DNA of 52,636 nucleotides from positions 1 through 52,636 of the forward strand of contig JAAYOY010000156.1 in assembly GCA_012520035.1 (NCBI GenBank). Direction: 5' to 3'. Origin of the DNA: Bacillota bacterium (lineage in GTDB: Bacteria; Bacillota; Dethiobacteria; DTU022; UBA8154). The translations under genes were made by a program, and so were the position numbers. Positions 8,926 to 52,570 of the stretch are shown piece by piece. Numbering within the stretch: position 1 is the first letter of the stretch; each line of letters begins with the position of its first letter. The notes under the pieces were generated by a model that had not been told where the DNA came from, did no database searches, and was given only the letters and a program-made list of their open reading frames with translations.

Positions 8926-9120
8926 ATAGCTAAGAAATATAGCTAAGAAAAAATTACGTTAGCCAGCATTCCTTAAAATTGCAAATTTTAGGAACCGTCC
9001 CTAGTGTTGCATCGCACTAGTGTCGCAGCCAGCATTCTTAAAATTGCAACGGCAAGAACCGTCTCTGGCGTAGCACCCCTGGGCGTCGCATGCGACAGTA
9101 AGAACCGTCCCTAGTGTCGC
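8926..9120. repeat. Composite repeat cluster downstream of ecfT
   Basis: Several repeats lie end to end. ATAGCTAAGAAA occurs twice (about 8926-8951). AGCCAGCATTC(C)TTAAAATTGCAA occurs at 8961-8984 and 9027-9049. Three GGGACGGTTCT cores in reverse orientation occur near 8991, 9054 and 9102. The last unit (about 9096-9120) runs into the coding sequence of ecfT. The same last unit, at about 32 bases, recurs in inverse orientation near 18772-18803. Confidence 0.7.
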
Positions 9121-9833
9121 ACTGCATAGACCAGCACTGCGGTGATAATTAAGGAAAGAGTCATGATCACATAATCTATTTTCCCCAGGGATATATCCCG
9201 ATAATATGTTCTGGTAGGAGATTTACGAAAACCACGTAGTTCAAGCAGTATCGAAAGCTTTTCAGCCTTCTGCAAAACGCTGTAGATAACCGGAGAAAAG
9301 ATGCTGACATACACTTTGAGCACTTTCCTTTTATAAACCCGGCGCAGGTCTACCCCCCGCAGTTGGATACCGTGAAAGATATTTTGCAGTTCGCCCATGA
9401 ATACCGGGATAAACCTGATCCCCACCTGTATCATAAAGACAATCTCGTAAGGAATGCGCAGCTTGACCAGCGCCAGGATTAACTCTGAAGTGTTACAGTT
9501 CAATATAATTAACCCCGACCCAACCAGTATAAAAAAGCGCAGCATTATGGATATCCCGTAAAGAACTCCATCAGTAGTTAATAGATAAATGCTGCCCAGT
9601 TGCAACAGCGGTTCCCCGTCCCTCACGAAAAAGCTCTGGATAACCATCAATGCTGCATACATATAGATAAAGCCTTTAAAGCCGCGAAAAATATGCAGCG
9701 GCACCCTGAAGAGTATAACGGTCAACAGGTTTAAAAGCAAGATAATGCCCAGGGTCCGGGGATCTTGATATGCCAGAGCCAAAACGGAAAAGATAGCCAC
9801 TATAAGGAGTTTAGTTCTGATATCTACCCGCAT
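9111..9833 (-). CDS. ecfT: ECF transporter transmembrane protein EcfT
   Basis: The membrane coupling subunit of an energy-coupling factor (ECF) importer; it links two ATPases to a substrate-binding S component. The 240 residues show several hydrophobic segments in the first 130 positions, then the two coupling-helix motifs: IQLRGVDLRR and LLELRGFRKS, LRG variants of the usual ARG signature. It overlaps ecfA by 23 bases and ends the six-gene operon. Its last residues, VRH, and TAG stop are read from a dispersed intergenic repeat, so the native C-terminus may have been altered by repeat insertion. The substrate is not evident from this subunit. Confidence 0.88.
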   Translation of the reverse strand: MRVDIRTKLLIVAIFSVLALAYQDPRTLGIILLLNLLTVILFRVPLHIFRGFKGFIYMYAALMVIQSFFVRDGEPLLQLGSIYLLTTDGVLYGISIMLRFFILVGSGLIILNCNTSELILALVKLRIPYEIVFMIQVGIRFIPVFMGELQNIFHGIQLRGVDLRRVYKRKVLKVYVSIFSPVIYSVLQKAEKLSILLELRGFRKSPTRTYYRDISLGKIDYVIMTLSLIITAVLVYAVRH

Positions 9834-10488
9834 CTTCTACAACCTCACCCTTTACCATGTGTATCCTTCTGCCGCCGTAAGCTGTTAAAAATTCCTTATC
9901 GTGGCTGATAACCATAATTCCCGTACCAAGGCGCCAGATTTCCTGCAAAATATCTTTCAACCTTTTTTTCCGGAAAGTGTCGATGCTCTTTGTCGGCTCA
10001 TCCAGGATCAGAAAACGGGGCTGCAGTGCCAACACGGCACAGATTACCACCAGTTGTTTCTGCCCCTCGCTCAGGTTAAAGGGAAGCTCGTCCCGCAGGT
10101 GCCAGAGTTCAAAGAATTCCAGGTATTTTTTGCAGAGGTGAAAAACCTCATCTTTTCCCTTGCCTTTCCATTTCAGACCAAAAGCAATTTCGTTAAAGAC
10201 GCTCGTGTTAAAAAGCATCTGGCTGGGGTTTTGAACAACATAACCTATTTTTTCCCCAATTTTAACCAGGGAATATTTACCCAGCGGAAGGCCGTCGAGA
10301 ACGATGTTTCCCGCTTGAGGCTTGAGAAGGCCAAGGATCAGTTTGGCCAGCGTGGACTTGCCGCTGCCGTTCAAACCGGTAAGGGCAATCTTCTCCCCCT
10401 CTTCAATATTAAGAGTAATATTTTTAACCGCAGCCTCTTTCCGCCCGTTGTAAGTGTAACTCACTTCCTGCAATGAAATAAAAGCCAC
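9811..10488 (-). CDS. ECF transporter ATP-binding protein, second copy
   Basis: One of two ABC ATPases of the ECF module. It has Walker A GLNGSGKSTL, a Q-loop region at GYVVQNPSQM, signature NLSEGQKQL, Walker B FLILDEPT and switch His in ISHDKEF. At 225 residues it is slightly short for an EcfA, ending soon after the H-loop. It overlaps ecfT by 23 bases and follows the first ATPase by 43. The pair would form a heterodimer driving the S component encoded upstream. Confidence 0.9.
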   Translation of the reverse strand: MAFISLQEVSYTYNGRKEAAVKNITLNIEEGEKIALTGLNGSGKSTLAKLILGLLKPQAGNIVLDGLPLGKYSLVKIGEKIGYVVQNPSQMLFNTSVFNEIAFGLKWKGKGKDEVFHLCKKYLEFFELWHLRDELPFNLSEGQKQLVVICAVLALQPRFLILDEPTKSIDTFRKKRLKDILQEIWRLGTGIMVISHDKEFLTAYGGRRIHMVKGEVVEDAGRYQN

Positions 10489-10531: not shown

Positions 10532-11272
10532 CTAGAAAAAGAACCTGTGTTCCCTTAAGAACTCTTTGTTCTGCAGGACAAAATCTTTGGAACCCCGGTA
10601 GATAATCCGCCCCTCTTCCAGAATAAAAATTTTGTCGTACACTTCAAAACCTTTCATGGTGTGGTCAATAATAACCTGAGTGGTTCCCTCGTCTTTTAAT
10701 CTCTGCATGACTGCTATAATCCTTCGCGCCGCCAGCTCATCAAGCATGGAGAGAGATTCGTCAAAAACAATAATGGAAGGGTTTAGAGCCAGCACAGTAG
10801 CCAGTGCGACCAGCTGTTTTTCGCCCCCCGACAAGTTGTTGGGATTTTCGTCTTTAAGCCCGGTAATGCCCACCGTTTCCATAGTCCTGTAAATGCGCTC
10901 CCTGATCTCCTCGCGGGGGAGGTTGTGGTTCTCCAGGGCAAAGGCAATATCATCTTCTACCGTAGGCATCAACAACTGGATACCCGGATCCTGCAGGACA
11001 ATTCCTATTTCTGTGGTCAGCTGGTATAAAGGGGTCTCCCTGGTGTCTTTTCCGTTAACCAGCACCCGCCCTTCCAGCTTTCCCTTCAGGTAATGGGGAA
11101 TAATGCCACAGAGGCAGTAACTCATGGTGGTTTTACCGCAGCCGTTCAGCCCGATAACCCCCAGGGCTTCCCCTTCAAGAAGCTTAAAGGTAATATCCTT
11201 TAAAACCGGATGATTACTCGCTTCATATGTGAAAAATAAATGTTCTACCTTCAGGCGCTCCATGCTTTTCAT
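10532..11272 (-). CDS. ECF transporter ATP-binding protein, first copy
   Basis: The 246-residue partner ATPase. Visible motifs are Walker A GLNGCGKTTM, Q-loop GIVLQDPGIQL, signature NLSGGEKQL and H-loop VIIDHTM. Walker B reads IIVFDES, with Ser where the usual motif has Pro after the catalytic Glu. The start at 11272 has GGAAAAC upstream. It follows the S component by 62 bases, enough for a weak regulatory gap but no clear terminator. Confidence 0.9.
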   Translation of the reverse strand: MKSMERLKVEHLFFTYEASNHPVLKDITFKLLEGEALGVIGLNGCGKTTMSYCLCGIIPHYLKGKLEGRVLVNGKDTRETPLYQLTTEIGIVLQDPGIQLLMPTVEDDIAFALENHNLPREEIRERIYRTMETVGITGLKDENPNNLSGGEKQLVALATVLALNPSIIVFDESLSMLDELAARRIIAVMQRLKDEGTTQVIIDHTMKGFEVYDKIFILEEGRIIYRGSKDFVLQNKEFLREHRFFF

Positions 11273-11334: not shown

Positions 11335-11925
11335 CTAATCCTGCGGTTTCTCATTCGCTGTATTCCCTTGCGCACCTTTTAAATTGTTGACCACATCGTA
11401 TAGCTTATAGCCTACAATTCCTCCAATTCCTCCAAAAATGACGGAAACAATCAATGAAACCAGCATGGGAATAAATGCAAGGCGCATAAAAACCACGCTA
11501 ACGATAAACGAACCGGTAGCGTTGCACACCGCTCCGGCGGTAAACGAACTGAAAAGCGTAGAAACATAATGCGGGAAGGCCAGCATCGCCAGTTCCAGGG
11601 TAATCCCGGGTACTACGTAAACTAAAAGGTTGGCCAAGCCACGGTTGCCGAGCATGTCAAATACCACTACCAATACTGATTGCACAATGCCGACTAAAAT
11701 AGCCGTTCCCCTTTTTTTTACAATAGCGCAGGCCAGGACAATCCAGAGCATATAAAAGATACCGGCTACCGTCCCGATGGGGACCAGGGTTCCCGTAAAT
11801 ATCTCGGCCAAAAACCTGACAAAAGGTTTTGTGGCAATCCCGCAGGCTGATAAAAGTGCAATAATTACGAAGTCGAAGGTAGTAAACCTGATAAAAAACT
11901 TGTTAATCATTGTCAACTGTTTCAC
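11335..11925 (-). CDS. ECF transporter substrate-binding S component, YkoE-like
   Basis: A 196-residue membrane protein with five or six hydrophobic segments and a hydrophilic C-terminal tail. Its pattern (GTLVPIGTVAGIFYMLWIV, then KKRGTAILVGIVQS, then a long NLLVYVVPGITLELAM segment) resembles the YkoE-type S component known for thiamine precursor uptake. I judge this by eye, and the resemblance need not mean the same substrate. The start overlaps the methyltransferase by 23 bases, and the ATPases and EcfT follow, so the operon encodes a complete importer. No thiamine gene or THI-box is visible. The ModE-like operators upstream suggest a molybdenum- or tungsten-related substrate, which is inference. 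Confidence 0.75.
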   Translation of the reverse strand: MKQLTMINKFFIRFTTFDFVIIALLSACGIATKPFVRFLAEIFTGTLVPIGTVAGIFYMLWIVLACAIVKKRGTAILVGIVQSVLVVVFDMLGNRGLANLLVYVVPGITLELAMLAFPHYVSTLFSSFTAGAVCNATGSFIVSVVFMRLAFIPMLVSLIVSVIFGGIGGIVGYKLYDVVNNLKGAQGNTANEKPQD

Positions 11926-12673
11926 TTCTCCCTTTCCAGATAATCATGGCGCTTTTCCTGGGGTTGGGAACCCAGCAAAGGCCGTTTCTCGTGGTGATAA
12001 TTTTTTGAAGATGCTCTTTTAAAAGATCCGTGGGAGGCAACCCCAGCTTTTCTCCCATGTAAAAGACGCAATTGTCGAGCTCATCCCTGCTTGCCAGGGG
12101 CATACCAAAATCATATTCAATTATTTTGCACTCAACCTCCTTCCCCTGATTTTGTAACAGATGCAGGAGGTCGCGGTAGTCACCGCTGAAAGAGGGGGGC
12201 GCAATTCCCATTTTTACGTAAAGTTCTTCAGTTAAAAAATCAGTTTGAACGCTTGAATACGGAGAAATTAAGAAAGCAGCCTTTCCGGCGATCTCAAATA
12301 TTTTTTTTAGCCCCCGGGCTGTGCCGATTGTACCGCCGAAACTGTAAGCACAGACAGCGACATCGCTTTTTTCGGCCTCCACCTCCAGCCAATCGCCGTA
12401 AATAAGTTTTACCTTCTTCAACCCCAGCTCTTTTATTCTCCCCTGCAGGGCATCAAGGTTTTTTTTGCTTATATCTACCGCCTGAACATGAAAACCATCC
12501 CGGGCAGCCGCCAGCGCAAACGCCCCGGGACCGCACCCGATATCAATCAAGGATGTGCAGCCGTCAAGGTGCGGCCGCATGGCCTCCCAGAACACCCGCG
12601 GGTAGTCGCTGTGCTCGATTCCCAGGTAATAATTTAAAATTTGTTCGTCTGTCCATTCTTTCATCACGCTCAC
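11903..12673 (-). CDS. Class I SAM-dependent methyltransferase, unknown substrate
   Basis: A 256-residue protein with a Rossmann-like methyltransferase core. Motif I is LIDIGCGPGAFALAAA (about residues 38-53), followed by the acidic end of strand 2 in VQAVDISKKN, and a motif near LIYGDWLEVEAEKSDV. The likely start is GTG at 12673 with GGAGAGGG upstream; it overlaps the NTPase stop by four bases, so translation is probably coupled. An ATG at 12664 is an alternative. Its place between a P-loop NTPase and ECF genes suggests it modifies or detoxifies the transported compound, or is a chalcophore- or cofactor-type enzyme. I cannot name the substrate. Confidence 0.8.
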   Translation of the reverse strand: MSVMKEWTDEQILNYYLGIEHSDYPRVFWEAMRPHLDGCTSLIDIGCGPGAFALAAARDGFHVQAVDISKKNLDALQGRIKELGLKKVKLIYGDWLEVEAEKSDVAVCAYSFGGTIGTARGLKKIFEIAGKAAFLISPYSSVQTDFLTEELYVKMGIAPPSFSGDYRDLLHLLQNQGKEVECKIIEYDFGMPLASRDELDNCVFYMGEKLGLPPTDLLKEHLQKIITTRNGLCWVPNPRKSAMIIWKGRSETVDND

Positions 12674-13332
12674 AACACGGCCCTCTCCACAAATTTTTTT
12701 ACTCTGTTTTTGATTTCCGGGATATTGCTCCCGGTAACTCGCAAGAGCTCCATCTCCGGATGAGATTTGATACGCTGCAGGAAAAAGGCTCTGTTACTAC
12801 CCCTCCTTTCGTTTTTTTCTGCATAAACAACAGAAACAGCAAACGCATTGTCAGCGCATTTACCAGCCAGGGCTGCATCCAGCTTCTCCGCATTTCGCGG
12901 GGATTTTAAAACACCGAGCACGGGAATTTTACTGTTTAACACCGTCATAACCGCTTCCATAAAAGCGGGGCAGTCAAGCTCCACCCCTCCCAATTCATCC
13001 AGCAGTATTAAATGCTTGTTTTTTTCGACACTTTCCCTCAAGTATGCAACCCCGCTGTTTTCAAAAACTTCTTTATTCGGTCGCCATTTACCTTGGCTGT
13101 CGCTGTAAAGAAAAAGGTTGTCCACTTCACTTAAACTGTTTACGTGTTTATTCAACCTGTAATCCGCCGCTTCTTTTATCGGATGCAATTTAAACGCGAC
13201 ATACCGCTCCCCAATAAATATCCTCTGCACAAAAATCCCTCCCACTTTGGGCAAAAAGGGAAGCAGGATTTCCCGAATAAGTGCAGATTTCCCCAGACGG
13301 ATATTTCCTTCTAAAAATAAATTTTTCTTCAT
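12670..13332 (-). CDS. THEP1-like P-loop nucleoside-triphosphatase
   Basis: The protein begins with KNLFLEGNIRLGKSALI, where GNIRLGKS is the Walker A motif. Walker B is LILLDELGGVEL, followed by the F..AV segment typical of the THEP1/NTPase_1 family; VLGVLKSPRN may be the sensor strand. Known family members hydrolyse NTPs in vitro and their cellular roles are unclear. I chose the ATG at 13332, or the GTG directly before it, because GGAG lies about nine to twelve bases ahead; the ATG at 13362 has no ribosome binding site. It heads the methyltransferase-ECF operon. A MobB-like role in cofactor handling is an alternative reading, given the ModE-like boxes upstream. Confidence 0.78.
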   Translation of the reverse strand: MKKNLFLEGNIRLGKSALIREILLPFLPKVGGIFVQRIFIGERYVAFKLHPIKEAADYRLNKHVNSLSEVDNLFLYSDSQGKWRPNKEVFENSGVAYLRESVEKNKHLILLDELGGVELDCPAFMEAVMTVLNSKIPVLGVLKSPRNAEKLDAALAGKCADNAFAVSVVYAEKNERRGSNRAFFLQRIKSHPEMELLRVTGSNIPEIKNRVKKFVERAVL

Positions 13333-13456
13333 CACAGTATCATTCTCCGGTGCTTTTTTCATCAGTTCAGTTTTGTTTAGTTCAATTCTTCAGACCAGTT
13401 CAATTCTTAATCACGTTTTAATGCGCTGTATATAATTTAATTTATATGAAGCTTTC

Positions 13457-13480
13457 GCGCCGTATATTATTTATATGCGC
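13457..13480. promoter_or_regulatory. Degenerate palindrome near the ModE-like boxes
   Basis: GCGCCGTATAT then TATTT then ATATGCGC forms an imperfect 24-bp palindrome immediately downstream, on the transcribed side, of the two strong boxes. A still weaker relative (GCGCTGTATATAATTT) starts at 13423. These may be extra operator sites or simply AT-rich promoter DNA. Confidence 0.3.
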
Positions 13481-13490
13481 CTTTCTTCAT

Positions 13491-13542
13491 CGTTATACTT
13501 ATATACGTATAACGATGGCGTTATATTTCTACACGTATAACG
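13491..13542. promoter_or_regulatory. Tandem ModE-like operator boxes upstream of the NTPase/ECF operon
   Basis: Box 1 (13491-13514) is CGTTATAC-N8-GTATAACG, a perfect 8-bp inverted repeat. Box 2 (13519-13542) is CGTTATAT-N8-GTATAACG with one mismatch. Each is 24 bp and they start 28 bp apart, so they lie on nearly the same or slightly rotated helix face. As I recall it, the Escherichia coli modA operator has the same 24-bp length and the same CGTTAT/ATAACG half-sites. A possible minus-strand promoter (TTACCG at 13544-13549, TATAAC at 13520-13525, spacer 18) overlaps box 2. The boxes lie 160-210 bases upstream of the NTPase start, with no other gene between. Confidence 0.72.
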
Positions 13543-13689
13543 ACGGTAAAAGAAAAGGGTTTTTGAATAAACTTACACTGCCCCATATAACCGATTATAA
13601 TTTAACAAGTTTGCTTATTTCAATTTAATGTAAGGTTGCAGGACAAAGTCCTCAGAGCTCAGCACTTAGCGCCAACAGAATTATTCCTT

Positions 13690-13782: not shown

Positions 13783-14604
13783 TCAAGCAGGACAGGTGTT
13801 CTTTTTAAACTTTACTCCTTTAAAAGCTTTAGCTTTGTTCTTTTCAAATATTAACTGTGCAAGGATGCTGACGGCGATCTCTTCTGCGGTAATGGCTTTG
13901 ATATCCAGACCGATAGGAGCATGCACTTTCTCCAGGTCTTTTTCTGTAAAACCTTTTTCCATTAAGTTATTAAATATTGTTTGAACCTTAATTTCGCTAC
14001 CGATCATCCCCAAATAATAAGCTCCGGAAAGGAGAGTTTTTTCCAGGGCTATCTGATCGTGTTCATGGCCACGCGTTACAATGGTAATGTAAGTATTCCT
14101 GGTTATCTTCCAATTCTGCAGCAGCTCAGGTATCTCTCCAACCAGGCACTGATCCGCCGTCGGAAATCTCTCGCTGTTGCAGAATTCCTCCCTGTCATCC
14201 ATCACGGTCACATGAAAACCCACAATTTTCGCCATAGCTGCGAGGGGCTGGGCAATATGCCCTGCGCCGATAATAAGAAGCGATTCCGGAGGAATAATTA
14301 CATCGATGAAGACCGTTACATCCCCGCCGCAGATCATTCCCAACCCTCCGGCTTGTTCATTATCCAGCCTGTACTTTCTGATTTGGGAGGCATTTTTTTT
14401 AATGGCCTCTACAGCATCCCGGATCACTGTCGCCTCAATCCGGCCGCCGCCAACAGTACCCAATGTATTTCCTTCAAGATCCACCAGCATTTTAAAGCCT
14501 GTTTTACCCGGAGCGGATCCGGTTGATTCGATAATCGTAACAAGGGCGGCAGGTTCCGCGTTTCCTGCCATCTTACTAAGATGTTCAAAAATATCTTTTT
14601 CCAT
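13783..14604 (-). CDS. XdhC/CoxI family molybdenum hydroxylase maturation protein
   Basis: XdhC-type proteins bind molybdenum cofactor, promote its sulfuration and deliver it to xanthine dehydrogenase-like enzymes. The N-terminal XdhC/CoxI domain shows ALVTIIESTGSAPGKTG and LGTVGGGRIEA. The C-terminal Rossmann domain begins at LLIIGAGHIAQPLAAMA and includes VMDDREEF and IVTRGHEHD. I chose ATG 14604 (273 residues), preceded by GGGGGTG at nine bases; GTG at 14616 would add four residues. The yqeB-type gene lies upstream on the same strand after a 286-base gap with its own inverted repeats. The two typically act in the same Mo-hydroxylase system. Confidence 0.88.
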   Translation of the reverse strand: MEKDIFEHLSKMAGNAEPAALVTIIESTGSAPGKTGFKMLVDLEGNTLGTVGGGRIEATVIRDAVEAIKKNASQIRKYRLDNEQAGGLGMICGGDVTVFIDVIIPPESLLIIGAGHIAQPLAAMAKIVGFHVTVMDDREEFCNSERFPTADQCLVGEIPELLQNWKITRNTYITIVTRGHEHDQIALEKTLLSGAYYLGMIGSEIKVQTIFNNLMEKGFTEKDLEKVHAPIGLDIKAITAEEIAVSILAQLIFEKNKAKAFKGVKFKKNTCPA

Positions 14605-14748
14605 CAATTTACACACCCCCGGAACAAATTTTTAATTGAAATGCTGCAGCTAAAGCACCGCTAAATACTACTGAACCTAATGGAGACAAAACATCATATA
14701 TAATTGATTCCACTGCAAAAATCATTATTTATGAATTGAATTTAATAG

Positions 14749-14890: not shown

Positions 14891-15703
14891 TCACCGGTTA
14901 TACGACAAATGTAAAATTGCTTCCAACACCCCTCCTGCTACGGATCTCGCTTTATCAGAAATGGTATGAACAGCTATTTCTTTCCCGCGGGGATCGATAT
15001 CTCCAATTTTTGCCCCCGGCTCAACTTCCAGGCCAGGAAATAGTAAACCGCGTAGAACACCGCTTATTGCCGCCTTCACGGGTACATCGTTTACAGTAGC
15101 AACTGTCTCGCCTTCCCCGACAAGGTCGCCAATTTTTTTCTGGGTTGTAAATACCCCTGCAGCCGGTGCCCGCAGCACTCTTTCCAGTGCAAAGCCTGCA
15201 ATATCGCCGGGCACACCGGTGTTTGGGGCGGCAGAACCGTTATAGATTACTCTGCCCAGATCATGGCCCCGCTGGGTTTCAATAACAGCATGGACATCCT
15301 TCCCGGCGGTAAAACCGGGACCCAGCCCTATAACAAGGGGTGCATCTCCAATAGAAGTGCCTGTATTTCTTTTGGCCAGAATGGCGTCAACCAGAACATC
15401 GGGTTGATAGATTTGTACCAACTTACCCTCCGGATCGATAAAAACGGGTATAATTCGTTTTCCCAACAATTCATCTATTCGATCGGCCTCTTCGATCCCT
15501 TGGCAACATCTCGCTTCAACCCCTTCAATAGACACGGAACCCTCATAAACGGCAGAAGCAAAAGAAACGCTGCGCCTTACGACAAGCGGTTGCGGCAGCT
15601 CCAGCATGACAACATCAAATCCGGCCTGCCACAGGCGGTGGGCGGTTCCGCTGGCCAGATCCCCGGCGCCTTTGATCAAGATTTTCGATGGTAGCTGTCT
15701 CAC
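14891..15703 (-). CDS. yqeB: Selenium-dependent molybdenum hydroxylase system protein, YqeB family
   Basis: The 270-residue protein matches the YqeB/EF2563 type found with XdhC, SelD and Mo hydroxylases. The N-terminus ILIKGAGDLASGTAHRLW is a Rossmann-like nucleotide-binding loop, and VVMLELPQPLVVRRSVSFA follows, with LVIGLGPGFTAGKDVHAVIE and RGHDLGRVIYNG further on. Its biochemical activity is not established; genome context ties it to maturation of selenium-containing molybdenum hydroxylases. It lies upstream of the xdhC-like gene on the same strand. No selenium genes are seen in this window. Confidence 0.85.
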   Translation of the reverse strand: MRQLPSKILIKGAGDLASGTAHRLWQAGFDVVMLELPQPLVVRRSVSFASAVYEGSVSIEGVEARCCQGIEEADRIDELLGKRIIPVFIDPEGKLVQIYQPDVLVDAILAKRNTGTSIGDAPLVIGLGPGFTAGKDVHAVIETQRGHDLGRVIYNGSAAPNTGVPGDIAGFALERVLRAPAAGVFTTQKKIGDLVGEGETVATVNDVPVKAAISGVLRGLLFPGLEVEPGAKIGDIDPRGKEIAVHTISDKARSVAGGVLEAILHLSYNR

Positions 15704-41612: not shown

Positions 41613-41840
41613 TTGGGAACATCGGTCGCCTTAAAAATTAGCGGCAGAAACAAGCTACGCGGAAAAGTAGTAAATGTTACCCCCGGTATCGTCACGGCAG
41701 AAGTGGAGGTTGATATCGGCAACGGTAACAGAATTACCGGGGTAATTACCAAAAATTCCCTGGATGAAATGCAAATCAAAACCGGGGATGAAGTTATCGC
41801 CCTGATTAAAGCAACTTCAGTCATGTTTATAAAAGAATAA
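41613..41840 (+). CDS. mop: Stand-alone Mop/TOBE molybdate-binding protein (molbindin)
   Basis: A single Mop/TOBE domain of 75 residues: SVALKISGRNKLRGKVVNVTPGIVTAEVEVDIG and ITKNSLDEMQIKTGDEVIALIKATSVMF. Molbindins oligomerise and store or sense molybdate and tungstate. Translation starts at TTG 41613 with AAAGGAGG nine bases ahead. It is a plus-strand single gene in an otherwise minus-strand molybdenum island. It is notable because neither ModE nor ModC here carries such a domain. Confidence 0.93.
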   Translation: MGTSVALKISGRNKLRGKVVNVTPGIVTAEVEVDIGNGNRITGVITKNSLDEMQIKTGDEVIALIKATSVMFIKE

Positions 41841-43241: not shown

Positions 43242-44549
43242 TTATTCAGTATTCCACTTAACGGTGACAGAACCATATTTTTCACGCGCATGGTCACAAT
43301 ACTTCAAAAATACAGGCCTTCCGGTCGATAGAAAAGCCTGGCCCAGGATGGCCTCCGCAAAAGGACCAAAACCCTGAGGCACTTTCATAGCCCCATGAGC
43401 ATGCACCAGCTCAAGCTGGTCCTCATTAAGTCCAATAGCCCAGGCAATAACGCCGCGGTAATGGTCCGGGAAAGAAAACCTGGAATATATCACCAGCTTG
43501 CCATTGCGATCGAGGTTGGCAAACCCTAAATTGTAAGCCTGAGGGTGACAGATCGGTTCCGCCATCGCCTTACTGAACTGAGTTCTGTCTTGTATTCCCG
43601 GAACTTCCTCCTTCCCTGAAAATTTATATTTCGCTTTTACCTTTCGGGCAGCCGCAAGGGCGTTTTGCAGGGAGTCAGCACATACAACAGCGAGCACTTC
43701 ATCCTTGCTTTTAATTTTTTCTCTGCAGACGCTGAGAATGGGGCGGCTAAACTCGAGCCCTTCTCCCCGTACAGAAGCCGGAGCGCTCAAATAATTGCTT
43801 CCCAAAACATCATGATAAGTAATCACCCGATACACCCCGGAAACACCCCACGCTTCGCCTACCTCAATAGATACCAGTTCTTCATTGGTTATCCCGGCAC
43901 GAACCAGTGCCAGGTGCAAAGTGTCGGGTGGAATCTTGATACCCAGTTCGGGAACGGGGGTCCAGGAGGCTGAATCTCCGATGATAGAATCGAACACAAT
44001 TTGCCGGGAATCAATCACTTTTTTTTCAGTCGAAATCATGCCGGCCAGCTCATTAATACCTGTTTCGCCACGTATAACCCGGGCGGCATCCTCAATGGCA
44101 TTTATCCGCTTTTGCATAGTCCTTTCATCGTTACAACATTTAAAGGACAGCTGATAAAACCAGCTTTGTATATCTTTCCTGCCCGGGAACGGATTGATCT
44201 CCAACATCGAAGCAGCAGTGCCAATTGCCTTTCCGGAACAACAAAAACAACCGGGGCTGCCATGAACGACCCAGGCCAATTGCAGGGCCTGCAGGGCTCC
44301 GCCTTCTTTTATGCCTTCTCTGGTGGTAATAAATGTGCCGTCCGGCAACTCCCCAAGAGCAGTAGTACAGGCAAGAGCTGCTTTCCCATTGATAATGACA
44401 AAACAGTCTTCACAGTCTCCCGTACCACACCGGCCATTATCCAGACTGATTCCCAGGCGCCGGTTTTGAAAAATCACCGCCAGAGAGACTGCGGGATCCG
44501 CAATTAGTCGCCAGCGAACACCGTTTATATTCAGCTCTTTTTTTATCAT
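43242..44549 (-). CDS. Truncated molybdenum hydroxylase-like protein with 2Fe-2S domain
   Basis: A 435-residue protein shaped like the first half of an aldehyde oxidoreductase/xanthine dehydrogenase. Residues 1-90 hold a plant-type 2Fe-2S domain with C41, C46, C49 and C61 in exact spacing. The second cluster domain is altered: C101/C104 fit CFCC, but KCCND (136-140) replaces the usual C-R-C-T-G. Residues about 190-310 form the alpha/beta hammerhead. The molybdopterin domain begins (LVIYSRFSFPDHYR, QGFGPFAEAILGQAF) but stops at about 435, before most cofactor contacts and the catalytic Glu. A strong terminator follows. It may be a dead remnant or an electron-transfer or cofactor-scaffold protein. 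No small or large partner subunits are nearby. Confidence 0.8.
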   Translation of the reverse strand: MIKKELNINGVRWRLIADPAVSLAVIFQNRRLGISLDNGRCGTGDCEDCFVIINGKAALACTTALGELPDGTFITTREGIKEGGALQALQLAWVVHGSPGCFCCSGKAIGTAASMLEINPFPGRKDIQSWFYQLSFKCCNDERTMQKRINAIEDAARVIRGETGINELAGMISTEKKVIDSRQIVFDSIIGDSASWTPVPELGIKIPPDTLHLALVRAGITNEELVSIEVGEAWGVSGVYRVITYHDVLGSNYLSAPASVRGEGLEFSRPILSVCREKIKSKDEVLAVVCADSLQNALAAARKVKAKYKFSGKEEVPGIQDRTQFSKAMAEPICHPQAYNLGFANLDRNGKLVIYSRFSFPDHYRGVIAWAIGLNEDQLELVHAHGAMKVPQGFGPFAEAILGQAFLSTGRPVFLKYCDHAREKYGSVTVKWNTE

Positions 44550-48433: not shown

Positions 48434-48748
48434 CTAAAACTCATGAAAAAATTCAAAAAAAACACTGTCTGTAACAGTGATTACATCCTTTTTATATTGC
48501 TTATAAAGATTTAACAGTTCCTTTCCCTTGGGAGTTAATTCGGCACCACTTTTTCGCCCCCCGGCCTGCCTTTGAACCAGCTTTAACCCAAGCCTTTCTT
48601 CCGTAGCTTTAATCTTGCCCCAGGCTGCCCGGTAGGACATGTTCAATTTTTCCGCCGCCTGTTTGATGGAACCTGTTTCTTCAATAGCCTGAAACAGGGC
48701 AACGCGCCCCCCGCCGAAAACAACGGCACCGTCTACCTCAAGCCACAA
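48434..48748 (-). CDS. modE: ModE-type winged-helix regulator without molybdate-binding domain
   Basis: A DNA-binding protein matching only the N-terminal half of ModE: VDGAVVFGGGRVALFQAIEETGSIKQAAEKLNMSYRAAWGKI, then LVQRQAGGRKSGAELTPKGKELL. The TOBE/Mop C-terminal half is absent. The start is uncertain. TTG 48748 has no ribosome binding site and drops expected N-terminal residues (KLK before LWLEVDG). An ATG at 48804 gives MEDKKK and then reads out of frame through ten A residues (48786-48795); adding one A would join it to NEDIHCKIQPKLKLWLEVDG. The HTH frame has no other ATG or GTG. Its own strong promoter lies upstream. Confidence 0.82.
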   Translation of the reverse strand: MWLEVDGAVVFGGGRVALFQAIEETGSIKQAAEKLNMSYRAAWGKIKATEERLGLKLVQRQAGGRKSGAELTPKGKELLNLYKQYKKDVITVTDSVFFEFFHEF

Positions 48749-48932: not shown

Positions 48933-49031
48933 ATATTGTTCATATGTACCGTTGCTTCTTACGCAGTGCTATGCGCTCGTGGCTAAACAGTACTTTTCTA
49001 AATATTGTTCATATATACCGCGGCTTCTTAC
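48933..49031. repeat. Direct repeats between modD and modE
   Basis: ATATTGTTCATATGTACCG and ATATTGTTCATATATACCG, each followed by GGCTTCTTAC or GTTGCTTCTTAC-like sequence, are 69 bp apart (48933-48962 and 49002-49031). They lie about 60-160 bp upstream of the modE promoter and could bind a regulator. The rest of 48873-49058 shows no gene. Confidence 0.5.
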
Positions 49032-49058: not shown

Positions 49059-49904
49059 TTAAGTAGCTTTCATTGTTACACCGATGTTTATCGGCCGGCC
49101 AAAATACATTGAAGTCGTGACAATTGCATCCACTCCCGTTGCAGCGTATTCATCAATATTATTTTCATTTATCCCTCCAGCAGCAATGCAAAGGATCTGT
49201 GGAAAATCCATTTTAATTACCCTCACCAGATCCGTCAATTTTTCGGGAGGCAATTTGTCAAACTGCAGCCCATCTACACCCGCCCGGCATAAAGGAAATG
49301 CCTCCTCCGGTTGCTCAATTTCAATGATTATCTTTTTTTCACAGCTTTTTGTTTTTAATTTCTCTATTTTCGTTGTTGGCTCATCCCATGAACTGTCAAA
49401 AACCCGGTGCTGCTTAAAAATGAGTATCGATTCCGATAAACCAAGGCGATGAGGAAGCCCTCCGCCGCATAAAACCGCCTTTATGCACAGCTCTTTTGTT
49501 CCTGGAAAGACCTTTCTCGTTGATAGTATAGATACCTTTTCGTTCACTTTCCTCGCTTTTTCCACCAGCCTGTTAGTGCGGGAGGCCACGCCGCTGGCGT
49601 ACTCCAGGATATTTTGTGAGGTTTTCCAGAGCAGATGCAGTATCCCGGCTCTGCCGGCAACTTTCATAAAAACCTGTTCGGGAAAAACTTTTGAGCCTGA
49701 AGAGAGGTACTCCAGCACCTCCCCACCCTTTAACGCGGTCAATCTTGCCACTTCCTCTGTTCCGCATATAACGGCTTCGTCCCTGCTAAAAAAATGCATT
49801 TCACCATTCCGGCTGCCTATACCCATCATACAGGTTGTTAAATCCATGTAGGGTATATCTTCCTTAAGCCATCTTTCCAAAGTATCATTAGTGATATTAA
49901 ACAT
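49059..49904 (-). CDS. modD: ModD, NadC-like phosphoribosyltransferase family protein
   Basis: A 281-residue protein of the nicotinate-nucleotide pyrophosphorylase fold that occurs in molybdate transport operons as ModD. It shows DIPYMDLTTCMMGI, YASGVASRTNRLVEKAR, STRKVFPGTKELCIKAVLCGGGLPHRLGLSESILI and the barrel-closing AAGGINENNIDEYAATGVDAIVTT. AGGAGG is seven bases before the ATG. Activity is not established; NadC itself is an alternative, but the place behind modABC favours ModD. Confidence 0.88.
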   Translation of the reverse strand: MFNITNDTLERWLKEDIPYMDLTTCMMGIGSRNGEMHFFSRDEAVICGTEEVARLTALKGGEVLEYLSSGSKVFPEQVFMKVAGRAGILHLLWKTSQNILEYASGVASRTNRLVEKARKVNEKVSILSTRKVFPGTKELCIKAVLCGGGLPHRLGLSESILIFKQHRVFDSSWDEPTTKIEKLKTKSCEKKIIIEIEQPEEAFPLCRAGVDGLQFDKLPPEKLTDLVRVIKMDFPQILCIAAGGINENNIDEYAATGVDAIVTTSMYFGRPINIGVTMKAT

Positions 49905-50013: not shown

Positions 50014-50748
50014 TTAGAATGAACAGGCAAATGCTTTTTTTATAGGCCCTATCCCCAGGAATTGAGCTACTTCCTGATCCCCGTTCTTTTCAAAGATTTC
50101 CCTTGAAACTCCTACTTGCCTTACTTTTCCCTTTAATAATACCGCTATTCGATCTGCAAGTATGTTTGTTTCGTTAAAATCATGGGTAACATGAATAATA
50201 GTGCATCTGTACTTCTCATGAATCTTTTTAAGTTCCTCGCACAAAACCCATTTTGTATTAGGGTCTAGAGCACTTAACGGCTCATCCATTAAGAGTATCT
50301 TAGGTTTCATAATCAGGGCTCTGGCAAGCGAAACGCGCTGCTGCTCACCGCCGCTCAATGTACCCGGATAACGCCCCAGCAAATGACTAATTTTCATCAT
50401 ATCCGCCATCTCTTTTACACTTTTTTTCATCATAGAAGGCGATATTTTGCGAATCTGTAAGCCGAAGGCAATATTTTTAAAAACATTTAAATGAGGAAAT
50501 AGCGCATAATCCTGATATACAAAGCCGATTTCCCTTTTCTCGGGAGGAATATTTGCTGCATCAACTTCATCAATCAACACCTTACCCGCATCAGGTCTGT
50601 ACAACCCCGCAATCAACTCCAAGATGACGGTTTTGCCACTTCCTGTTGGACCCAGTATGGTGAAAAATTCCCCGGAATGTATGGTTAGGTTAATATTATC
50701 AAGCAAAAAATCCCCCAGCTTAATTGATACAGCAGAAAGCCTGATCAT
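50014..50748 (-). CDS. modC: Molybdate/tungstate ABC transporter ATP-binding protein
   Basis: The ATPase of the importer, 244 residues. Walker A GPTGSGKTVILE, Q-loop FVYQDYALFPHL, signature LSGGEQQRVSLAR, Walker B ILLMDEPLSALD and H-loop IIHVTHDFNE. I chose ATG 50748 after GGAGGGCGGCTC; a longer frame adds 19 residues without support. It ends soon after the H-loop, without the C-terminal TOBE/Mop domain that many ModC proteins have. A gap of 83 bases follows modB. Confidence 0.92.
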   Translation of the reverse strand: MIRLSAVSIKLGDFLLDNINLTIHSGEFFTILGPTGSGKTVILELIAGLYRPDAGKVLIDEVDAANIPPEKREIGFVYQDYALFPHLNVFKNIAFGLQIRKISPSMMKKSVKEMADMMKISHLLGRYPGTLSGGEQQRVSLARALIMKPKILLMDEPLSALDPNTKWVLCEELKKIHEKYRCTIIHVTHDFNETNILADRIAVLLKGKVRQVGVSREIFEKNGDQEVAQFLGIGPIKKAFACSF

Positions 50749-50831
50749 GAGCCGCCCTCCTTGCCAGTTGCATGTAAAATAATAATACTCCCCGTGTTTT
50801 GCCATCCAGACCGGTTACACTCCGGTTATAC

Positions 50832-51641
50832 TTAAATACCACGGGTGTCTCCAATAAAGTCACCTCCGCACCTGTTAAAGATATACAAGCATATTAACGA
50901 AATAATTATCAGCAGATTTGCTGCCGCCATCGCACCGTCAAGATCTCCGGTCGACATATTTAAGAATAATGCTATCGGCAATGTCTCTGTGCGAAAACGA
51001 GTAGCCCCGGCTAACATTAATACGCCGCCAAATTCCCCCAGAGCTCTTGCCCAAGTGATAACAGCCCCGGCTATGATCCCATTTCTCGAAAGCGGCAGAG
51101 TTATTTTAAAGAAAGCCTGGGCAGGAGTACAGCCGAGGGTTCGCGCAATAAATTCTAAACGGGGATTCACGGATAAAAACGCCGCTTTCATTACCCTGAT
51201 CATAAAAGAGAGGTTTACAAAAATCTGCACCATGATAATCCCCTTGACCGTAAAGACAAAGGAAAGGCCGATCCCTTCCAGCCAGGCCCCAAAATTTGTC
51301 GTACCAAAAAAAAGCAGAAGGCAAACACCCGCAACCAGAGGAGGCAGCGCCAGGGGCAAATCCAAAAGCGTATTAATAAGAAACTTCAGAGGAAGATCCA
51401 CTCTAACCAGGGCATATGCTACCGGTATCGCAATAAAGATACAAAAAACTGTAGACACCAGTGAAGTATAAAGACTTAACTTGATCGCAAACTGAATCTC
51501 GGGAGTAGCCAGGGATTGGGCAATACGCGGAATGCCCCTGACCATTACCGCTAAAACGGCAGATACAATGAACAGAAGGACGAGGCAGATTATAATTACC
51601 ACAAAAAAGCTAAACCAATCTTTCAACCATACTTTCTTCAT
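50832..51641 (-). CDS. modB: Molybdate/tungstate ABC transporter permease
   Basis: A 269-residue permease with about six transmembrane segments. The cytoplasmic coupling loop reads FIARTLGCTPAQAFFKITLPLSRNGIIAG, the EAA-type motif, and SLYTSLVSTVFCIFIAIPVAYALVR is the first conserved transmembrane pair. It begins three bases after modA. Confidence 0.92.
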   Translation of the reverse strand: MKKVWLKDWFSFFVVIIICLVLLFIVSAVLAVMVRGIPRIAQSLATPEIQFAIKLSLYTSLVSTVFCIFIAIPVAYALVRVDLPLKFLINTLLDLPLALPPLVAGVCLLLFFGTTNFGAWLEGIGLSFVFTVKGIIMVQIFVNLSFMIRVMKAAFLSVNPRLEFIARTLGCTPAQAFFKITLPLSRNGIIAGAVITWARALGEFGGVLMLAGATRFRTETLPIALFLNMSTGDLDGAMAAANLLIIISLICLYIFNRCGGDFIGDTRGI

Positions 51642-51644
51642 AGG

Positions 51645-52478
51645 CTAATGGCCTCCGTTACCGGGTTTAAATCCGCTTTTTTCCCATATGGCCATCGCCT
51701 TTTCGCCCGCTACAAAATCGACAAACCGGTTAGCAGCTTCCGGATTTGCGGAACATTTTAAAGAAACGACAGGGACTGTTTTGATATAATGCTCAAGTTC
51801 TGAAGCATGAACCATTTTAATATCTTCTTTGCCCACAAGATTGTCTTCCCAAATAACTGCCGCATCAGCCTGCCCCAGAGCAAGATAAGTAAAAAGCTCA
51901 TTAACCGTAGCCGTCCGGGCAACAATATTGGGTTCCACGCTTTCAAATAAACCATATTCTTTTAATACCTTATCAGCAATTTTCCCAATGGGATTTGCCT
52001 CAGGATCGCCAAGAACAACCTTAACCCCCGCTCTGGCAAGATCCTCTAAGCCGGTTATTTCAGCAGGATTATCAGCAGGCACGGCTAGCGCAGGAATATG
52101 CAGAACCACCGGTTTTTGCCGATCAATCTTATCTTTTTCATTCAATTCCCTCAGTTCATCAACATCTCCAGGCAGGAAGACATCTCCTTTTTCAACAAGG
52201 AGAATCTGTCCTACACATTGGGCCGAACCTCCATATGAAAATTGCACCATGATGCCGGTTTCTTCCTGGAACATCCTTGCAATTTCTTCCATAGGTATAC
52301 GCAAACCCGCACCGCAGTATACCAGAAGCTCTTCTCCTCTACTTTCTCGCTCCGGCTCTGCCCCTGGTTCTTGGCCTGCAACAGCAAGATCCGCGTCCCC
52401 TGGCCGGCAACCACCTGTTGCCCCAATAAGAACAACAACAACTACTACTACTGCAATTAGAAAAAAATATTTTTTCAA
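51645..52478 (-). CDS. modA: Molybdate/tungstate-binding lipoprotein
   Basis: The substrate-binding component. From TTG 52478 the protein (277 residues) begins with the signal peptide KKYFFLIAVVVVVVVLIGA and a likely lipid-attached Cys24 (TGGC). The mature part has LLVYCGAGLRIPMEEIARMF, VQFSYGGSAQCVGQI and PVVLHIPALAVPADNP, as in ModA. TTG follows GGGAGGTTTTAGG; the ATG at 52499 has no ribosome binding site. TupA/WtpA-type tungstate binding cannot be excluded. First gene of modA-modB-modC-modD. Confidence 0.9.
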   Translation of the reverse strand: MKKYFFLIAVVVVVVVLIGATGGCRPGDADLAVAGQEPGAEPERESRGEELLVYCGAGLRIPMEEIARMFQEETGIMVQFSYGGSAQCVGQILLVEKGDVFLPGDVDELRELNEKDKIDRQKPVVLHIPALAVPADNPAEITGLEDLARAGVKVVLGDPEANPIGKIADKVLKEYGLFESVEPNIVARTATVNELFTYLALGQADAAVIWEDNLVGKEDIKMVHASELEHYIKTVPVVSLKCSANPEAANRFVDFVAGEKAMAIWEKSGFKPGNGGH

Positions 52479-52546
52479 CCTAAAACCTCCCGATTGCATT
52501 CTTTTTTAAGAAATATGACTTGGAGCTGCTTAGCTTTAATTGGTCC

Positions 52547-52570
52547 CGTTATGTTTTTTTAAGCATACCG
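52547..52570. promoter_or_regulatory. ModE-like operator upstream of modA
   Basis: CGTTATG-N10-CATACCG, 24 bp, one mismatch between the arms (CGTTATG against CATACCG). On the minus strand it contains TATGCT, a possible -10, so binding would compete with RNA polymerase. It lies about 70-90 bases before the start codon. Nothing else is recognised in 52571-52636. Confidence 0.62.

Follow-up and report, generated by a model that had tools for sequence, protein, structure and literature searches.

An ECF importer encoded behind what look like ModE operators raises the question of what it carries. The operon lies on the minus strand of the window, by which we mean the whole analyzed stretch of 52,636 nucleotides (contig JAAYOY010000156.1 of the Bacillota assembly GCA_012520035.1, from an uncultured anaerobic bacterium). 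An earlier note on this DNA had placed the operon in the molybdenum or tungsten (Mo/W) regulon and had named molybdate, tungstate and a molybdopterin-type compound as possible substrates. Our analyses favor, with a probability of about 0.6, the reading that the operon encodes a dedicated ECF transporter of group I, which would be switched by ModE through tandem operators and would import a molybdopterin-type compound.

Domain searches agreed with the earlier description of a minus-strand operon with a THEP1-like NTPase first and an ECF importer last. The gene order is NTPase–methyltransferase–S–A–A'–T, comprising the THEP1-like P-loop NTPase (12670–13362; PF03266, 58.2 bits against a cut-off of 23.9), a class I SAM-dependent methyltransferase (11903–12673), the S component of the PF09819 family (11335–11925), the ATPases A (10532–11272) and A' (9811–10488), and the T component (9111–9833; PF02361). 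The NTPase carries GNIRLGKS as its P-loop and matches the NCBIfam model PRK13695 below the cut-off; its true start is probably at 13332, 10 codons inside the open reading frame, because the orthologues begin with MKKNLF. The T component resembles the CbiQ models, through PF02361 and, below the cut-off, TIGR02454. An operon with a full set of S, A, A' and T genes to itself has the layout of a group I ECF transporter, and the order is conserved in relatives. The domain search found neither a molybdate-binding protein nor a ModB-type permease in the operon, and PDB searches with the NTPase sequence or a profile of S gave no useful match.

The two 24-bp inverted repeats reported upstream of the operon were found exactly as described, with a start-to-start spacing of 28 bp. 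Both are perfect: predicted operator 1 (13491–13514) reads CGTTATACTTATATACGTATAACG, of the form CGTTATAC-N8-GTATAACG, and predicted operator 2 (13519–13542) reads CGTTATATTTCTACACGTATAACG, of the form CGTTATAT-N8-GTATAACG. They share the frame CGnTAT-N12-ATAnCG, which is the geometry of ModE operators and identical to the frame of the Escherichia coli ModE consensus, ATCGNTATATA-[N6]-TATATANCGAT (PMC545781). Allowing up to three mismatches, the window contains four box matches against 0.27 expected, and none of 100 shuffles gave four; in a scan of the draft genome at up to two mismatches, these two boxes were the only perfect matches. An imperfect box with three mismatches, CGTTATGTTTTTTTAAGCATACCG, lies upstream of modA (52547–52570). 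A genome from the genus of the window organism (G054) also has two boxes at the orthologous operon. A sigma-70 promoter of the ECF operon, TTGAAA-N18-TATAAT, was predicted by consensus match only on the minus strand at 13594–13623. The boxes sit downstream of its –10 element, a position suited to a repressor, and at several orthologous loci the box starts 9–27 bp downstream of the –10 element.

To place the boxes in a wider context, we scanned the 98 genomes available for the class with the pattern CGTTAT-N12-ATAACG, using the reversed pattern as a control. The pattern was present in 49 genomes, and the control gave only a handful of matches. The genes close downstream, identified by similarity to the window's proteins, were mostly MoeA-like molybdopterin-binding genes, modA or other molybdate/tungstate transporter genes (tup), xdhC, yqeB and aldehyde-oxidoreductase-like genes, while a minority of the boxes had no Mo-related gene nearby. 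As the same box precedes Mo/W genes across the class and the control has few matches, the box is predicted to be the Mo/W operator of these bacteria. A variant, CGTTATGT-N8-ACATAACG, occurs often in some genomes (L178:341–364, L069, L101–L106) and may belong to another type of ModE.

Orthologues of the NTPase (E below 1e-25) were found in 14 of the 98 genomes, the window's own included, and a scan of one genome per species (84,980 species) brought in further carriers, under the labels Desulfotomaculum, Thermoanaerobacteraceae and Tepidanaerobacteraceae. We tested 18 orthologous NTPase loci, 16 of them with transporter genes. Within 400 bp, 14 of the 18 had a box with no more than one mismatch, where chance would give 0.017. 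At three S-containing operons (L119, L125 and L142), there was no box directly upstream of the NTPase, and L125 has one before xdhC. The earlier note had tied its reading to conservation of the boxes in front of orthologous operons; their recurrence there and before known Mo/W genes bears out the assignment, and by comparison the ECF operon is a predicted part of the Mo/W regulon. At locus L141, the order is modE–yqeB–yqeC–mocA–xdhC–[box]–NTPase–methyltransferase–S–A–A'–T, with similar clusters at L138, L125/L134, L142 and L139; xdhC and the ECF genes are clustered together at L125/L134, L138, L141 and L142. The identity of YqeC and MocA comes from a domain search of the homologous gene at L173 only. 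Such shared clusters tie the ECF transporter to the maturation of Mo hydroxylases.

The window itself is rich in molybdenum genes. On the same strand and upstream of the ECF operon are genes for an XdhC-type Mo-hydroxylase maturation factor (13783–14616) and for YqeB, a selenium-dependent Mo cofactor biosynthesis protein (14891–15703; TIGR03309, 362 bits, above cut-off). A Mop-type, molbindin-like molybdenum-pterin binding domain is encoded on the plus strand (41613–41840; TIGR00638, above cut-off). Farther along, the minus strand encodes a ModE protein (48434–48748; TIGR00637, 1.4e-20, below the curated cut-off), ModD (49059–49904; TIGR01334, above cut-off) and a modCBA-type molybdate/tungstate ABC transporter (50014–52499; ModA matching TIGR01256 above cut-off), whose ATPase (50014–50805) is closest to the WtpC model, below its cut-off. 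By eye, we observed the motif ATTGTTCATATRTACCG repeated at 48939 and 49006, between modE and modD. The match of a 435-aa open reading frame at 43242–44549 to a 905-aa model of a molybdopterin-dependent aldehyde oxidoreductase does not extend beyond the first third of the model, and the gene is probably truncated or broken.

The earlier note had looked to the window's ModE as the protein to bind the boxes. This protein consists of the DNA-binding domain only, with no molybdate-binding domain, and its gene adjoins modD and modCBA. The genome encodes a second ModE of the DNA-binding domain only (G000:C114), beside a YqeC-MocA fusion gene, and a third, larger ModE-domain protein. ModE genes located beside boxed MoeA-like or xdhC genes or ECF operons are about 34–40% identical to the window copy. 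Because the context of the second ModE resembles that of the ModE genes beside ECF operons and boxes, it would be the likelier regulator. In one genome with a box (G014), no ModE was detected. Elsewhere, we observed a 391-aa protein in which a ModE DNA-binding domain is fused to a TupA-like tungstate-binding domain (L117:803–1978), possibly a tungstate sensor; a ModE-domain protein of ~418 aa in the window's genome (G000:C3:2650–2886) may be of the same kind.

We then considered the S component. An AlphaFold model built from a 39-row alignment had a pLDDT of 90.3 (nine close sequences gave only 57), and its best match in the PDB was YkoE (5edl, TM 0.71), with further matches to 4hzu_S, 5kbw and 3rlb, RibU and ThiT among them. 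The thiamine contacts of YkoE are W49, E77, Q95 and D131 (PMC5037267). In the alignment, residues Y46, W49, E77, Q95 and D131 of YkoE correspond to G55, Y58, V86, P106 and V142 of the window S; in helix 2 the alignment may be a few positions off and Y58/W61 could match Y46/W49, leaving E77, Q95 and D131 without counterpart. In the phylogenetic tree, the window S, which we assign to a Moco-linked clade, falls in a 100/100 clade nested in a 100/99 clade together with sister S proteins and apart from YkoE. No TPP riboswitch was found in the window. Given the pocket residues, the separate clade and the missing riboswitch, import of thiamine or HMP was rejected.

The sister S proteins were the most informative about the substrate. 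Their operons encode MobB and PF00174-domain lipoproteins, and some also MoeA, ModE or XdhC. The NTPase–methyltransferase pair also occurs beside sister-type S genes at two loci, L235 (genome G106, without MoaC or MoeA) and L250, supporting a process shared with the sister clade. Neither MoaC nor MoeA was found in eight sister carriers (G106, G132, G190, G277, G301, G341, G371 and G385), absence calls that concern draft genomes and these two families; completeness was 94–99% except for G385, and G190 is a single contig. These carriers nevertheless contain molybdopterin oxidoreductase domains. In G106, formate dehydrogenase-N is split by a stop at the usual place of selenocysteine, a layout repeated in G277 and G301; G341 has MobB and MobA on either side of a formate dehydrogenase, G190 a PhsA-like enzyme and G132 a 652-aa oxidoreductase. 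The evidence from G371 is weak, its only match being among a number of PF01568 proteins of ~540 aa that may be NuoG-like and cofactor-free. In a 100% complete genome lacking MoaC (G336), formate-dehydrogenase-like genes are divergent from an S–PF00174-like–MobA group. PF00174-domain lipoproteins and small membrane proteins accompany several sister ECF operons (L220, L222, L223, L224, L235 and others) and could be extracellular receptors. A role of the lipoproteins as sulfite-oxidase-type enzymes was unsupported, as those inspected had no recognizable Mo-ligating Cys motif.

We quantified the association in a 300-genome sample of the phylum. Of the well-covered genomes that had strong PF01568 but lacked MoaC, 9 of 11 carried S, vs. 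18 of 188 with MoaC (p = 1.9e-7; sets compiled by hand and genomes not independent, the S-bearing ones spanning at least seven families); a strict version, with 7 of 8, gave p = 1.8e-6. None of the 68 genomes in the sample with neither PF01568 nor MoaC had S. A congener of G190 (G152) has MoaC and no PF09819 match; in G253, a congener of G106, and in G198, PF01568 was present and neither MoaC nor S was detected. Molybdoenzymes in the absence of MoaC and MoeA are a pattern of sister-clade carriers; in the window clade, MoaC is retained by every carrier but one bin of 82% completeness, and MoaA by most. Moco auxotrophy of the window organism itself was rejected, MoaC and a contig-edge MoaA being present.

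For cells that use Moco without an early step and the metal-insertion step of its synthesis, finished cofactor from outside is the simplest need. The substrate is probably a molybdopterin-type cofactor and not a bare oxyanion; of the three substrates in the earlier note, the sister-clade operons and the carriers lacking MoaC and MoeA favor the molybdopterin-type compound and make molybdate and tungstate less plausible. With sufficient molybdate or tungstate, ModE would hold the ECF operon off, and a shortage would derepress it. The ECF complex would then import the compound, most likely the finished Mo- or W-cofactor or a nucleotide form of it, from other microbes, and the NTPase and the methyltransferase, as we would guess, handle or modify it before it reaches the Mo-hydroxylase maturation proteins. 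In the window clade, the presence of MoaC would make import optional, which fits control by ModE, and the role carried over by homology would be cofactor scavenging under Mo/W shortage. The sister S proteins are only about 40% identical to those of the window clade, which limits the transfer, and the window-clade operon has neither MobB nor PF00174 lipoproteins. To the fuller proposal, in which the importer of finished Mo- or W-cofactor is obligate in bacteria lacking Moco synthesis and facultative under ModE in the window clade, with the NTPase–methyltransferase pair processing the cofactor, we would give even odds.

The main rival to a molybdopterin-type substrate is uptake by the complex of molybdate or tungstate as such, or of a chelate of the oxyanion, as a second route beside modABC or tupABC. 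The membership of the operon in the Mo/W regulon is what such a route would predict, ModABC and TupABC genes are among the neighbors in G054 and G068, and in G056 an NTPase orthologue with three perfect boxes is divergent from genes for a BtuC-type permease, an ABC ATPase and a lipoprotein (L121:9130–13082). From its gene content, this BtuC-type operon appears to be a second transporter class tied to the NTPase, and type II importers of molybdate and tungstate exist, such as MolBC-A of Haemophilus. However, it is hard to see what the sister carriers lacking MoaC and MoeA would do with bare molybdate, yet they have kept the transporter together with MobB, and modABC or tup genes are already present in several carriers; an oxyanion-binding S component is, moreover, not known to us. 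We consider this rival unlikely. A pterin intermediate, cPMP or metal-free molybdopterin, would show the same association with Moco-deficient genomes as the finished cofactor, and window-clade genomes retain enzymes able to finish it, but the sister carriers also lack MoeA and so have no known route for the metal into imported metal-free molybdopterin; import of an intermediate is, in our judgment, quite improbable.

Two further explanations concern the identity of the transporter and of the boxes. A transporter of thiamine, HMP or another vitamin, of YkoE type and placed under ModE control, would agree with the PF09819 match and with YkoE as the best structural match; the unmatched thiamine contacts, the separate clade, the lack of a TPP riboswitch in the window and the molybdenum context throughout make it very improbable. 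The explanation that we credit least is that the boxes bind a different repressor or form hairpins in the RNA. Hairpin folding is possible for the box, its reading as a ModE site comes from sequence, and a different motif has been predicted for the single-domain ModE proteins of Desulfovibrio (PMC545781). Against this, the same box recurs across different Mo/W operons, modE genes are encoded with boxed operons, the E. coli consensus is matched and no Rfam family matched at the boxes.

Moco is an unstable molecule, and the general assumption is that any cell using it makes its own. The open literature searched offered no precedent for an ECF transporter for molybdate, tungstate or Moco, or for one linked to THEP1, and according to a 2022 paper, uptake of exogenous Moco had not been observed outside Caenorhabditis elegans (PMC9793310). 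If the preferred reading is true, it would explain how organisms can live with formate dehydrogenase in their genomes and no Moco pathway, and would predict cofactor sharing in anaerobic communities. It would also provide a named candidate gene set for Moco transport, probably the long-missing importer of the finished cofactor.

Among known systems, the group I thiamine/HMP transporter YkoEDC likewise comes with A, A' and T genes to itself, and its S component, YkoE, is alike in fold and in belonging to the PF09819 family. In contrast to it, the window S lacks most of the thiamine contacts and falls in a separate clade, and the window operon has two ATPase genes, the NTPase and methyltransferase genes and predicted Mo/W control. 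With ModABC, TupABC and WtpABC under ModE, the window operon has operator and regulon in common, but it has an ECF architecture and no periplasmic binding protein or permease of the ModB or TupB type. The metal importers CbiMNQO and NikMNQO are approached through the T component, which matches CbiQ models, whereas the window S is of PF09819 and not CbiM or NikM, and no CbiN gene was seen in the operon. In several genomes, the selenium-dependent Mo-hydroxylase maturation genes (xdhC, yqeB, yqeC and mocA) show physical linkage with the ECF operon; to our knowledge, no transporter, NTPase or methyltransferase of such a kind belongs to that set. The transporter is of a known kind, while its substrate class and its Mo/W control would be new.
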